Shown here one piece after another: positions 3,494 through 22,160 of a stretch of DNA of 34,056 nt. How positions within the stretch are numbered: the first letter of the stretch is position 1; every line of letters begins with the position of its first letter. The stretch is from positions 1-34,056 of IMG/VR virus record IMGVR_UViG_3300023184_000047; one strand, 5' to 3'. The notes beneath the pieces were generated by a model. That model ran no database searches, was not told the DNA's origin, and saw only the letters and a list, made by a program, of their open reading frames with translations. The DNA comes from a virus. The translations under genes and the position numbers were made by a program.

Positions 3494-3570
3494 AGTCAGG
3501 TGGTGTAATGGTAGCAGTTCCAACGTCCACAAAACTAGGAAGAGTACAGGTTCGAATCCTGTCCTGATTA
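3494..3570 (+). tRNA. tRNA-like gene with an enlarged anticodon loop (identity unassigned)
   Basis: The acceptor stem AGTCAGG 3494-3500 pairs with CCTGATT 3563-3569 (one G-U), followed by discriminator A. The T arm ACAGG-TTCGAAT-CCTGT (3546-3562) is perfect, and the D arm GTGTAATGGTAGCA is typical. CCA is not encoded. The anticodon arm is abnormal: placing 27-31 at TCCAA (3519-3523) and 39-43 at TAGGA (3536-3540) gives four pairs with one A-A mismatch and leaves a 12-base loop instead of 7, making the RNA 77 bases long with a short variable region. No anticodon can be assigned; CCA preceded by T (3526-3529) is one option. The 3' end from 3545 is identical over 23 bases to that of the second tRNA-like gene. 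It may be a decayed, insertion-bearing or otherwise unusual tRNA. Confidence 0.6.
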
Positions 3571-3730: not shown

Positions 3731-3825
3731 AGTCAGGTGGCGGAATGGTAGACGCTAAAGAGTCAAAGAGTCGTGCTTCTAAACTCTGAGGTAACACCAT
3801 ACAGGTTCGAATCCTGTCCTGACTA
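3731..3825 (+). tRNA. Class II (Leu-like) tRNA gene with tandem duplication and enlarged anticodon arm
   Basis: Acceptor AGTCAGG 3731-3737 pairs perfectly with CCTGACT 3818-3824, then discriminator A. The D arm GGCGGAATGGTAGACGC is typical of tRNA-Leu; the T arm ACAGG-TTCGAAT-CCTGT is at 3801-3817; a variable hairpin GGT-AAC-ACC is at 3790-3798. The length, 95 bases, is about ten more than usual. The excess is in the anticodon arm, where AAAGAGTC occurs twice in tandem (3757-3764, 3765-3772). The stem AGAGT/ACTCT can form with either copy, leaving a loop of 11 bases (second copy) or more. The last seven loop bases CTTCTAA would give anticodon TCT, but a Leu-like body with an Arg anticodon is odd, so I leave it unassigned. 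Confidence 0.62.
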
Positions 3826-3840
3826 CTATTTATACAAAAC

Positions 3841-4205
3841 GGGGATGACTGGTTTTGACAAGTTATAAGTAATTAATACAATTCAGCCCAGAGAGAGAAC
3901 TGGTAAAAACTAAGGTGAAATTAATAAATGGCAAAAACAATTCTCGTGTAGTGGCTCTAGGAGCAAACGCACAAATCGAAGCTAACATGAACAAAGTATT
4001 CTCTTTAATCGGAGAAGAAGTTGCTGTAGCAGCCTAAATTAAACAAGATTTCTTAGTTAGATTAAACTGAGTGGTGGTTTCGCTGGCTTAATTGTCGGCC
4101 CTAGAGTGCGCCTGTAGACTCTTTAAATAAGTATGGGGACAAAAGCTGTATAAAGTTGTATTGAAGAACATGGTTTGGACGCGGGTTCGACTCCCGCCAT
4201 CTCCA
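3841..4205 (+). ncRNA. ssrA: tmRNA (transfer-messenger RNA)
   Basis: The 5' end GGGGATG 3841-3847 pairs with CATCTCC 4198-4204 (one G-U), followed by discriminator A; CCA is not encoded. The 5' part continues GACTGGTTTTGACA, the typical tmRNA D-loop region, and the 3' part has the T arm GCGGG-TTCGACT-CCCGC. Helix P2 can form from AATACAA 3875-3881 and TTGTATT 4156-4162. A pseudoknot-like segment (CCAG ... CTGG) precedes the tag frame, and hairpins such as GAGT ... ACTC follow it. The total of about 365 bases is normal. tmRNA with SmpB rescues stalled ribosomes and adds a degradation tag. Phage-encoded tmRNAs are uncommon. The acceptor and T arm leave little doubt; details of the pseudoknots are not resolved here. 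Confidence 0.93.
3930..4037 (+). other. tmRNA tag reading frame, predicted 35 residues
   Basis: The frame begins GGC AAA AAC AAT (GKNN) and ends in GEEVAVAA before TAA at 4035-4037. GGC is nucleotide 90 of the RNA, the same place as the resume codon of E. coli tmRNA, and its context (TTAATAAAT then GGC) matches what I recall for Bacteroidetes tmRNAs, whose tags read GENNYALAA or similar. The tag then runs on far longer than the usual 8-11 residues. Other resume points in the same frame, GCT 3954 and GCA 3963, each have TAG five bases upstream and would give 27 or 24 residues. All versions end in AVAA, a ClpXP-type degron end. Confidence 0.65.
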
Positions 4206-4232
4206 CTATTTTTAATTTTTAATTTAATCGTT

Positions 4233-7771: not shown

Positions 7772-8545
7772 ATGAAAAGAATAGAAGATTATAATAAAAC
7801 ACTTCCCGTTGTAGAGCTTTATACAGCTGTACAATCAGAAGGAAGTAGAGCAGGTTATCCAACAGTAGTAATCAGAACAACAGGGTGTACTCACAGATGT
7901 TGGTTTGGTGAAGGTGGATGGTGCGATTCTTGGTACACAAGTATCCATCCTGAGAAAGGGCATATTAGTTTCCAAGACATTATTAACATGTACGATGCAA
8001 ATCCTCACATCACAGAGATGATGTTAACAGGAGGATCACCAACTATGCACCCAGCATTAGTAAACGAACTAACACATTTTGCACATGAAAGAAAAATATT
8101 TATCACTATTGAAACTGAAGGAAGTCATTTTCTGGAGACTGACTATCCTATTAATTTACTTTCCATATCACCTAAGTTTAGTAATTCGGTTCCTAAAATC
8201 GGAGTACTTACTCCTCAAGGAGCGGTTACGGATGAGAAAATGATTACTCAACACAACAAGTTAAGACTTAATTATGATGCCATTTCAAAATCAATCTCTT
8301 ACCATTCTGATTATCACTTAAAACCAGTATGGGATGGAGAGGATCAAGAAGCATTAGCTGAAATTATGGCTTGCATTAAAATGTTAGACATTCCAGAAGA
8401 CAAAGTATGGTTCATGCCAGCAGGAGATTCAAGAGAAGCTTTATTCAAATCATATCCAAAAATGTTTGATTGGGTAAGAGATAATGGTTATAGATTGACC
8501 TGGAGACCTCACATCATTGCATTTGAAGATCAAAGAGAAGTATAA
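7772..8545 (+). CDS. queE: QueE, 7-carboxy-7-deazaguanine synthase (radical SAM), with unusual cysteine spacing
   Basis: A 257-residue protein with the QueE pattern: VQSEGSRAGYPTVVIRTTGC at 20-39, the cysteine motif, LTGGSP at about 90-95 (SAM-binding GGE-type motif) and TIETEGS near 113. QueE contracts 6-carboxytetrahydropterin to 7-carboxy-7-deazaguanine. The iron-sulfur cysteines are C39, C43 and C51, that is CX3CX7C ending CDSW, instead of the usual CX3CX2C; five residues (around FGEGG) are inserted between the second and third. Other QueE groups also have altered spacing, so it may still work. The protein is also a little longer than bacterial QueE (about 210-250). It starts a new unit after a terminator and is joined by TAATG to the next ORF. 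Confidence 0.9.
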   Translation: MKRIEDYNKTLPVVELYTAVQSEGSRAGYPTVVIRTTGCTHRCWFGEGGWCDSWYTSIHPEKGHISFQDIINMYDANPHITEMMLTGGSPTMHPALVNELTHFAHERKIFITIETEGSHFLETDYPINLLSISPKFSNSVPKIGVLTPQGAVTDEKMITQHNKLRLNYDAISKSISYHSDYHLKPVWDGEDQEALAEIMACIKMLDIPEDKVWFMPAGDSREALFKSYPKMFDWVRDNGYRLTWRPHIIAFEDQREV

Positions 8546-8760
8546 TGAGATTAAAAGAAGCACATATGACAGAATTTGATTTACTAAATTCACTTTGGTG
8601 GTTATGGTGTAATCAAAAAATTAGTATAGGTGATGTAAAATTCTATGTAAAAGATTTGGATCTTGAATTAGACTTTATTACATTAGACGGATATAAATTT
8701 ATAAGTACAGATAAAAAAACAACTTATTCTTATGACAGAAAACAGAAAAAAGATTCATAA
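8545..8760 (+). CDS. Hypothetical protein, 71 aa, between queE and folE
   Basis: A 71-residue ORF sharing TAATG with queE and overlapping folE by 29 bases. A second ATG at 8566 (MTEFDLLNSLWWLW) could be used instead. The N-terminal half is aromatic and helical (LLNSLWWLWCNQ), the C-terminal half is strand-like and basic. No known motif. Its placement and overlaps suggest translational coupling of queE, this gene and folE, but no function can be given. Confidence 0.6.
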   Translation: MRLKEAHMTEFDLLNSLWWLWCNQKISIGDVKFYVKDLDLELDFITLDGYKFISTDKKTTYSYDRKQKKDS

Positions 8761-9427
8761 CGATTTAGAAATCGTTCCTGTAGGTTATGCAAACGGTGTA
8801 GCACCAGGTTTTCCATTTACCGAAAAAGAAAAACAATCTATGATTGAAGACGCTGCTAAGGCATATGGTAAATTCTTAGATGCATTAGGGTGTGATTGGA
8901 AAAACGATCCTAATAGTGATAACACTCCAATGAGAGTAGCTAAAGCCTATGTTAATGACTTATGGAAAGGTAGATATACAGCAATGTCTGAAATTACTTC
9001 ATTTCCTTCTGATGGTTATGATGGAATCGTAATTGAAAGAAACATTCCATTAACTTCAATGTGTTCACATCACCATCAAACCATTGGAGGAGTAGTTCAT
9101 ATTGGTTATGTAGTAGGTGAAAATGGTAGAGTAATTGGTTTATCCAAATTAAACAGAATAGTGGAACTATTTGGTAGAAGAGGAGCAATACAAGAACAAT
9201 TAACTTCTGCTATTCATAATGCAGTAGATAAAATTTGTGAAAACAATAGAGGTGTAATTGTAACTGTAGTAGGTACTCACAACTGTGTTTCATGTAGAGG
9301 AGTTAGACATCAAGGTGCTTCAATGGTTACAACTAAAGCAGCAGGTGTGTTTATGGAAAATGGGAATTTAGCTCGTGAAGAGTTTTTTGATTCAATCAAA
9401 ATTAATAACGGAACACACCCAGTATAA
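8732..9427 (+). CDS. folE: GTP cyclohydrolase I
   Basis: A 231-residue protein with clear GTP cyclohydrolase I signatures: DNTPMRVAKAY near residue 63, MCSHHHQTIGGVVHIGYV near 110 with the zinc-binding Cys and His, GLSKLNRIVELFGRR near 137, and the second zinc cysteine region THNCVSCRGVRHQGA near 183. It makes dihydroneopterin triphosphate from GTP, the first step towards preQ0 via QueD, QueE and QueC, all of which are in this window. The length is normal for FolE. It shares TAATG with the phosphoribosyltransferase gene downstream. A role in folate synthesis is possible but less likely in a phage that has the three downstream Que enzymes. Confidence 0.95.
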   Translation: MTENRKKIHNDLEIVPVGYANGVAPGFPFTEKEKQSMIEDAAKAYGKFLDALGCDWKNDPNSDNTPMRVAKAYVNDLWKGRYTAMSEITSFPSDGYDGIVIERNIPLTSMCSHHHQTIGGVVHIGYVVGENGRVIGLSKLNRIVELFGRRGAIQEQLTSAIHNAVDKICENNRGVIVTVVGTHNCVSCRGVRHQGASMVTTKAAGVFMENGNLAREEFFDSIKINNGTHPV

Positions 9428-20028: not shown

Positions 20029-20237
20029 TGGAACAGATAATTAGAGTAAATGATGATTTATTTTTAATAAAAAGAACAACTAATGAATTATATGAACGTT
20101 TTGCAAGTTTATGGAATGAAACATCTATAAACCATAAAACATTTAAAAAAGATGGCCGAATGTACTTCTGTGAACTTATAGAAGAGGCCCAAATTATAGA
20201 AGATAATATTAACCAAAAACAAGAAAACAATGATTAA
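20028..20237 (+). CDS. Small hypothetical protein, 69 aa
   Basis: A 69-residue soluble protein (MEQIIRVNDDLFLIKRTTNELYERF ... IEDNINQKQENND) joined by TAATG to the clamp gene and overlapping groES by 8 bases. It appears to be one strand pair followed by charged helices. Family not recognised. Tight coupling on both sides argues that it is translated together with the clamp and the co-chaperonin. Confidence 0.65.
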   Translation: MEQIIRVNDDLFLIKRTTNELYERFASLWNETSINHKTFKKDGRMYFCELIEEAQIIEDNINQKQENND

Positions 20238-20526
20238 AGCAGTATGGGATGCCATAATTGTACAGGCAGACGAAAAAAATGATCGTATGCATGGAAAATT
20301 TATTATTCCCGATTTAACGCAAGAAAAAGCAATAATTGGAACAATTATTGACGTAGGACCAGGAAAATGGAATGCAGCTGGAACTGAAAGAGTTCCTATG
20401 TCTTTTAAAGTAGGAGACAGAGTATTACTACCTCAAGTAGGATTAACTAAATTAGAATGGGACGGAATAGAATACTTAGCAACATCTGAGGCTACAGTAT
20501 TAGGATTAATTGAAGAACAAAACTAA
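20230..20526 (+). CDS. groES: GroES-like co-chaperonin
   Basis: A 98-residue protein with the GroES fold signatures: a start like MIKAVWDAIIVQADEK, a mobile-loop region around DRMHGKFIIPD (18-28) with the hydrophobic triad that contacts GroEL, IIGTIIDVGPGK at 36-47, and FKVGDRVLLPQVG near 60. The length equals that of cellular GroES (about 97) and not the longer T4 gp31 (111). It is followed after two bases by a full-length groEL, so the phage brings its own folding pair, presumably for capsid or other proteins that the host chaperonin handles badly. Confidence 0.93.
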   Translation: MIKAVWDAIIVQADEKNDRMHGKFIIPDLTQEKAIIGTIIDVGPGKWNAAGTERVPMSFKVGDRVLLPQVGLTKLEWDGIEYLATSEATVLGLIEEQN

Positions 20527-20528
20527 AT

Positions 20529-22160
20529 ATGAAAACAGCCTTTAATCAAGACGCTAAAGAGAAATTAGCAAAGGGTATTAAAACCGTAGCAGACGCTGTA
20601 GGTTCTACCTTAGGTCCATATGGACGAAATGTATTATTCCTTGACGAATATGGGAGTGTACGTAGTACAAAAGATGGTGTAACTGTAGCTAAAGAGCTTA
20701 AAAAACTTGAAGACCCTATTGAAAATATGGGAGCACAAACAGTAAAACAAGCATCTATTAAAACTGCTGATAAAGCAGGAGACGGTACTACTACATCAAC
20801 TGTATTAGCTAATGAATTAATTCAAAAAGCATTTAATAGTATCAACGCCAATACTAATGTTGTATTAGTAAAAAAAGGTATTGAAGCAGGAGCTGCTGAA
20901 GTATTAACAGGTTTAAAACAAATTAAACGTGAAATTACTTCTCCGGAGCAAATTAAGCAAGTAGCCACTATCTCTGCTAACAACGACGACGAAATTGGAG
21001 CATTAGTTGCTGAAGCTATGGAATTAGTAGGACAAGATGGTGTTGTAACTGTTGAAGAATCTAAAACAGGAGAAACATCATTAGAAACAGTTGAAGGTAT
21101 TCAATTTGACAGAGGATATAAATCAATGTACTTTGTAACAGATAACAATTCAATGTCCGCCACATTACAAGACCCAGTAATCTTAATTTATAATGGGCGT
21201 TTAGTATCAGTTAAAGAATTACTTCCAATTCTTGAAGGTGCTTCTCAAACAGATAGTTCATTGTTAATCATTGCTGAAGACATTGATGGTGAAGCTTTAT
21301 CTACGTTAATCGTAAATAAAATGAGAGGTATGTTAAAAGTAGTAGCGGTTAAAGCTCCTGACTTTGGAGATAGACGTGCTGCCGTTTTAGAAGATATTGC
21401 TACTGTAACGGGTGGAACTGTAGTGTCACCTGAAAAAGGTATGAAATTAGATAGATTTAATTCTGATTGGTTTGGTACTTCTAGAGTTGTAACTGTAACT
21501 AAAGATACTACTACAATTGTAGATGGTAGAGGTGAAGAAACTGCTGTTCAAGAACGTGTAGGTGAATTAAAAGAACACATAGGAAAAGCCACCTCAGCAT
21601 TTGAAAAAGAACATTTACAAGAACGTTTAGGTAAATTAGTAGGTGGTGTAGCTGTAATCAATATTGGTGGTGCTACTGAAACTGAAATTAAAGAGAAAAA
21701 AGATCGTATCGATGATGCTCTTCAAGCAACAAAAGCTGCTTTAGAAGAAGGATTATTACCTGGTGGCGGTATTGCTTTGTTAGAAGCTAGAGAAGGAATT
21801 ACTCAAAATAAAACAGACGGAGGTGACTTTAACTTAGGTAAAAGAATTGCTCATGCTGCTTGTGGAGCTCCATTCTTAAAAATTCTTACAAATGCTGGTA
21901 TTGAAACTACAAGTGAAATTATTTTCGCTCTTCGTAAAGCTAGAGAGGATAACCCAGAAAAAGGTCGTACATTTGGATATGATATAAAAACAGAAACAGT
22001 AACAGATATGTTTGAAGCTGGTATTATAGATCCAATGAAAGTAGTACGCACAGCGTTAGCAAATGCTGTATCCGTTGCCGGAACTATACTGTTAACAGAG
22101 TGTGTAATTTATGATGAACCTAAAAAAGATAAAGATGATCAACAACAGCTTATGGGTTGA
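20529..22160 (+). CDS. groEL: GroEL-like chaperonin, full length
   Basis: A 543-residue group I chaperonin, near the 548 of E. coli GroEL. Conserved sites include STLGPYGRNVLFLD at 26-39 (nucleotide pocket), KDGVTVAKE at 48-56, KAGDGTTTSTVLA at 82-94 (Asp and Thr for ATP hydrolysis), GGATETEIKEKKDRIDDA near 385 with the catalytic Asp, and EEGLLPGGGIALLEA near 410. The apical segment is well conserved. The C-terminus ends QQQLMG instead of the usual GGM repeats. It forms double rings that work with the adjacent GroES. Few phages carry both genes. The end of the gene overlaps the clamp loader start by 26 bases. Confidence 0.97.
   Translation: MKTAFNQDAKEKLAKGIKTVADAVGSTLGPYGRNVLFLDEYGSVRSTKDGVTVAKELKKLEDPIENMGAQTVKQASIKTADKAGDGTTTSTVLANELIQKAFNSINANTNVVLVKKGIEAGAAEVLTGLKQIKREITSPEQIKQVATISANNDDEIGALVAEAMELVGQDGVVTVEESKTGETSLETVEGIQFDRGYKSMYFVTDNNSMSATLQDPVILIYNGRLVSVKELLPILEGASQTDSSLLIIAEDIDGEALSTLIVNKMRGMLKVVAVKAPDFGDRRAAVLEDIATVTGGTVVSPEKGMKLDRFNSDWFGTSRVVTVTKDTTTIVDGRGEETAVQERVGELKEHIGKATSAFEKEHLQERLGKLVGGVAVINIGGATETEIKEKKDRIDDALQATKAALEEGLLPGGGIALLEAREGITQNKTDGGDFNLGKRIAHAACGAPFLKILTNAGIETTSEIIFALRKAREDNPEKGRTFGYDIKTETVTDMFEAGIIDPMKVVRTALANAVSVAGTILLTECVIYDEPKKDKDDQQQLMG

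Follow-up and report, generated by a model that had tools for sequence, protein, structure and literature searches.

The window, meaning the whole 34,056-nt stretch of DNA analysed here (positions 1 to 34,056 of IMG/VR record IMGVR_UViG_3300023184_000047, a viral record of 117,779 bp from a virus of Bacteroidota), carries a tmRNA gene on its plus strand. A covariance-model search places Rfam family RF00023 at 3841-4208 with 94.2 bits (gathering score 47) and an E value of 1.1e-35, covering full model positions 1-374, and ARAGORN independently calls the gene with bounds 3841-4206. Both agree with an earlier note, made by a model from the letters, in which a full tmRNA had been recognised. Two tRNA-like genes lie directly upstream (3494-3570 and 3731-3826); both are detected by Rfam and only the second by ARAGORN, as an odd 96-nt tRNA-Phe(aaa). 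Elsewhere in the window, inspection by eye shows apparent genes for QueC, a QueE-like radical SAM protein and FolE (1847-2764, 7772-8545 and 8732-9427), a 7-deazaguanine pathway possibly used for DNA modification, as well as GroES-like and GroEL-like genes in tandem at 20230-22160. The tmRNA gene has the following parts:

3841..4208, plus strand: whole tmRNA gene (ssrA), from the RF00023 match and ARAGORN
3841..3847, plus strand: 5′ strand of the acceptor stem, GGGGATG, with G3 at 3843; pairs with 4198-4204
3889..3919, plus strand: conserved element CAGAGAGAGAACTG..AAACTAAGGTGAA, located after helix P2 and before the tag frame, at the usual site of PK1
3925..3929, plus strand: TAAAT, the five bases 5′ of the resume codon, same as the flavobacterial host consensus
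3930..4037, plus strand: tag reading frame with its stop codon, GKNNSRVVALGANAQIEANMNKVFSLIGEEVAVAA; frame kept in relatives and under purifying selection
3972..4010, plus strand: conserved core of the tag, here QIEANMNKVFSLI; found in 90/91 distinct frames, with synonymous codon variation
4020..4034, plus strand: C-terminal VAVAA, presumed ClpX-type degron; 78/84 distinct tags end in AA, hosts in ALAA
4052..4071, plus strand: hairpin directly 3′ of the stop codon, CTTAGTT / AACTGAG, with compensatory changes in relatives
4181..4197, plus strand: T arm GCGGGTTCGACTCCCGC, stem covarying in 82/82
4198..4205, plus strand: 3′ strand of the acceptor stem, CATCTCC, with U70 at 4202, and discriminator A; CCA is not encoded

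Throughout the 82 aligned relatives the alanine identity pair G3:U70 is invariant and the T arm is intact, and many compensatory changes are seen in the neighbouring acceptor pairs, in helix P2 and in the T stem. Similarly, the pairing of the hairpin at 4052-4071 is restored in relatives by combinations such as CTCTGTT/AACAGAG and CTCTATT/AATAGAG. Judged from these alignments, the phage RNA is under selection as a tmRNA. Expression and charging of the RNA are presumed. At 3889-3919 RNAalifold, which is blind to pseudoknots, did not recover the canonical PK1 and gave a 3-bp hairpin only. Five relatives (L086, L104, L106, L107 and L121) harbor a group I intron (RF00028, 92-96 bits) in the T loop of the tmRNA, located at about 3210-3470 in L086, L104, L106 and L121 and at 420-643 in L107.

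The tag frame starts at the GGC codon at 3930, nt 90 of the tmRNA gene, and runs for 35 sense codons to a TAA at 4035-4037. Its site reads UAAAU/GGC (the slash marks the start of the resume codon) followed by AAA AAC AAT, and the encoded tag ends in VAVAA. Flavobacterial hosts present UAA[ACU][UC]/GGC GAA AAY AAY ..., which yields the 9-residue tag GENNYALAA, with TAAAT, TAAAC or TAATT as the pentanucleotide before the resume codon. Two sets of host tmRNAs were considered: 71 from a tag-based scan, parsed by ARAGORN, and a set drawn with Rfam, independently of the tag, from some 100 genomes of Flavobacteriaceae. The second set comprises 30 fetched tmRNAs and three earlier ones, of which 31 were parsed by script and 28 have 9-residue GENNYALAA-like tags; three parses look spurious. 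The phage GGC lies 10 nt past the conserved element, a spacing of 10-12 nt in 102/102 distinct relatives among the matches listed, and T-5, A-4 and A-3 before it are invariant in 76/76 relatives. We place the resume codon at 3930 because the site is identical to that of hosts, because the Rfam alignment puts this GGC at the RF00023 resume codon and because TAA[ACT][TC]/G[GA] is the sole candidate site common to the 102 distinct relatives among the matches listed. The earlier note had proposed the same codon and a 35-residue tag, as if a normal tag had been opened after GKNN and extended; the comparison of host GENNYALAA with phage GKNN...VAVAA at a shared resume site bears this out.

The same note had offered alternative starts at 3954 and 3963, for tags of 27 or 24 residues. 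With such a start, the upstream codons would have a role in the RNA only. ARAGORN does pick 3963, the UAGUG just before 3954 resembles the UAGUC box of E. coli, and the closest relatives hardly vary at GTGTAGT, yet the stretch is missing in many relatives, among them L290 (GKDQVSANM...) and L323 (GKQIDANM...), and both the Rfam placement and the host-like site 10-12 nt from the conserved element stand against it. We consider these starts highly improbable: 3954 was rejected and the 24-residue ARAGORN tag is a mis-call, meaning that a widely used annotation tool misplaces the resume codon in such long-tag genes.

Relatives were collected by two routes. A search of IMG/VR with the tag peptide gave 76 loci, and a tag-independent search with the DNA that precedes the frame, CAGAGAGAKAACTGN{0,6}AAACTAAGRTGAA, in which the conserved element at 3889-3919 was the probe by which the tmRNA family was found, gave at least 120 stretches. 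The resulting family set mixes tag-found and upstream-DNA-found members and holds 102 distinct sequences and 84 distinct tags among the matches listed; it is a sample and not a census, with many metagenomic contigs. A few relatives that end at a contig edge were left out of parsing, as was L382, which has no recognised resume site. Tags range from 24 to 49 residues with a median of 35, most being up to 45 with one outlier at 49 (84 distinct tags among the matches listed), and all parsed members that were picked by upstream DNA and not by tag are equally long-tagged (24-49). A chance open frame of 35 codons is possible in a single sequence, but all 102 listed relatives keep 24-49 codons, under amino-acid selection. 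The earlier note had set the comparison with related phages beforehand as a refuting test: no relative among the matches listed has a short or frameshifted tag. The other refuting result, a resume codon lying close to the 3′ end of its frame, was not seen either.

Cultured members of the family include the FpV4 group of Flavobacterium psychrophilum phages, FpV4 itself having no annotation for the tmRNA, and the Cellulophaga phages Calle, phi38:1, phi40:1 and crAss-like phi14:2. Given that very different phage lineages carry it, the tmRNA seems to move horizontally. Modules on the N- and C-terminal sides recombine around one core: GNTNNSVVSLEDNAQ precedes three different tails, the tail GDDTQEE(A/S)SYEVELA occurs behind two different heads and, generally, the tail parts vary freely in both sequence and length. 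L313 (2427-2793, minus strand) has a 49-residue tag without the ANM core, GNIDNDAQEVVDINYTFSTPMMVVHKGERKSVSPSQDLSWGTRQVAIAA, explained either by a frame shift or by replacement of the core; L385 starts like L313 but is incomplete. Another Bacteroidota phage tmRNA, at 5904-6283 of L072, encodes an unrelated 24-residue tag, GEEKSSFTFEDALAFVGADYAVAA. A scan of viral contigs for host-like GENN tags returned mostly non-tmRNA matches, along with a few tmRNAs bearing the 9-residue tag GEDNFALAA.

Of 91 distinct frames, 90 contain a core inside the tag, Q-[VI]-x-A-N-M-x-x-V-x-x-[LI]-[LI], L313 being the exception. Since the 102-sequence set mixes both searches, the selection test was repeated on members found by upstream DNA alone, whose cores were reduced to 20 differing by at least 8 of 42 bases. 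In these 20 cores pN/pS is 0.42 in frame (bootstrap over codons 0.22-0.65), the two shifted frames give 0.90 and 1.33, and pS is 0.72, near saturation; the alanine codon of the core occurs with each of the four bases in third position, but its first two bases are invariant. RNA structure was rejected as the cause of core conservation, as RNAalifold gave no signal (consensus energy 0.0). As in-frame pN/pS is low, synonymous sites are nearly saturated and RNA structure was not detected, the constraint falls on the peptide, and the core is, on codon-level evidence, kept by selection as a peptide. Selection on an interior motif shows that the extension of the tag carries sequence-specific information. 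In the FSLL(R/G)EE subclass a local RNA hairpin may explain part of the codon-level conservation, and at codons 2-8 of the linker amino-acid constraint is weak.

Searches beyond the family returned little. No relative of the tag was found in 84,980 bacterial and archaeal species, nor in 301 Flavobacteriaceae genomes, a search run without a positive control; the core profile gave no convincing non-tmRNA match in six-frame translations of the collected loci, and a PDB sequence search with the tag gave no match. The AlphaFold2 model of the tag is one helix (mean pLDDT 78), which on its own carries little weight, and helical amphipathicity of the core is mildly above shuffles (0.35 vs 0.24), an excess so mild that it is not counted as evidence.

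At the C-terminus, 78 of the 84 distinct tags among the matches listed end in AA, the VAVAA of the window being of the hydrophobic-A-A type, and none has an NYAFA-type end. The Calle/phi38:1 tag ends in VGV, so the -AA degron is not universal. In 21 phage records no smpB was found, and neither Lon nor ClpP was found above cut-off; the record of the window lacks smpB. Host SmpB and host proteases therefore presumably serve.

The reading that we favor, and consider reasonably probable, is an alanine-accepting phage tmRNA that relies on the AlaRS and SmpB of its host and encodes a three-module tag with a docking core. During infection it would rescue stalled ribosomes with these two host factors and append alanine followed by the encoded tag to the stalled chains, with ...A-GNNTNAVNAQIEANMEAV... 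as the expected junction. Module 1, directly behind the resume codon, would be a linker some 2-14 residues long, module 2 the 13-residue core Q[VI]xANMxxVxx[LI][LI] and module 3 a variable C-terminal stretch with a host-like -AA degron at its end, presumably read by host ClpXP. The core is a putative docking site for a host or, less likely, a phage protein, most probably a protease adaptor, a chaperone or an AAA+ protease, and through docking the phage would govern what becomes of tagged chains. It is best read as a docking motif in the light of a precedent, the longer tag of M. florum, which is read by Lon (PMC9382460). As a piece inside it is kept by selection across scores of viruses, the long tag probably has a further role and does more than mark proteins for destruction.

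Two other accounts of the long tag were weighed. If the tmRNA were an ordinary one, the tag would simply be a longer unstructured handle for ClpXP, its interior having no specific partner, which would fit the -AA ends kept by most tags, the long tags of unrelated phages and the freely varying tail; but a passive handle should not retain A-N-M in 90 of 91 frames when synonymous sites are nearly saturated, and we regard this account as unlikely. Slightly less unlikely is that the tag acts as a decoy or effector that titrates or redirects a host protein (candidate targets being a protease, an adaptor, a chaperone or a ribosome factor), in an anti-host or counter-defence role and not in proteolysis. 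Conservation of the core does not depend on the C-terminal end, one lineage dispenses with -AA (VGV) and searches of bacterial genomes did not return the motif, all of which agree with such a role, as does the single-helix model, itself weak evidence; the -AA of 78 in 84 tags points instead to degradation. A bolder reading, which we put forward tentatively, is a mobile Bacteroidota-virus tmRNA family whose tag is a three-module effector, its core docking every rescued polypeptide onto a specific host or phage protein during infection and thereby redirecting or hijacking quality control instead of only labelling chains for decay.

Compared with Flavobacteriaceae tmRNA (RF00023), the phage gene shares the G3:U70 tRNA-like domain, the UAA[ACU][UC]/GGC site, the G-x-N-x start and the -AA end, whereas its tags have 24-49 residues with a conserved core against 9 in the host, the canonical PK1 was not recovered and smpB was not found on the phage records. 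Mycoplasma and Mesoplasma florum are alike in having a long tag in the tmRNA, adapted to a particular protease; the M. florum ssrA tag has an NYAFA end and, in the absence of ClpXP, serves the organism's own Lon (PMC9382460), while the phage tags keep -AA and no phage Lon or above-cut-off ClpP was found. Mycobacteriophage tmRNAs are also phage-borne and long-tagged, with ARAGORN tags of 31 residues in Kumao (L493) and 25 in Bixzunavirus Kamryn (L496), but their tag sequences are unrelated and the core is not shared.

Long tags as such are thus already known, both from these mycobacteriophages and from reviews that give 8-35 residues (PMC8012679; PMC3968760), which corrects the earlier note, where ordinary tags were put at about 8-11 residues. 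The tag in the window has 35 residues against 9 in the host, a length that reaches the upper limit of the published range and does not exceed it. The annotated tmRNA of Cellulophaga phage Calle is a member of the same long-tag family; its publication speaks of 'one tmRNA' only, in passages that give no description of the tag (PMC8776804). A conserved, peptide-selected core across a phage tmRNA family has no description in the literature searched, which included few subscription journals, and as far as found the core is apparently undescribed.

Our observations extend tag lengths past the published 8-35 residues, mostly up to 45 with the one outlier at 49, and do so in a large, diverse family that includes cultured phages and in which the tag itself is selected as a peptide. 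For that reason, mass spectrometry and pull-downs using the 13-residue motif offer a direct test of why phages carry a tmRNA.

Other features were seen on the collected records. For L490 (Calle_1), 601-962, the GenBank tmRNA coordinates are off by about 50 nt. Two tmRNA-carrying phage contigs harbor further structured RNAs: a GOLLD RNA near tRNAs at 6195-6708 of L389 and a Hatchet ribozyme at 3304-3454 of L382.
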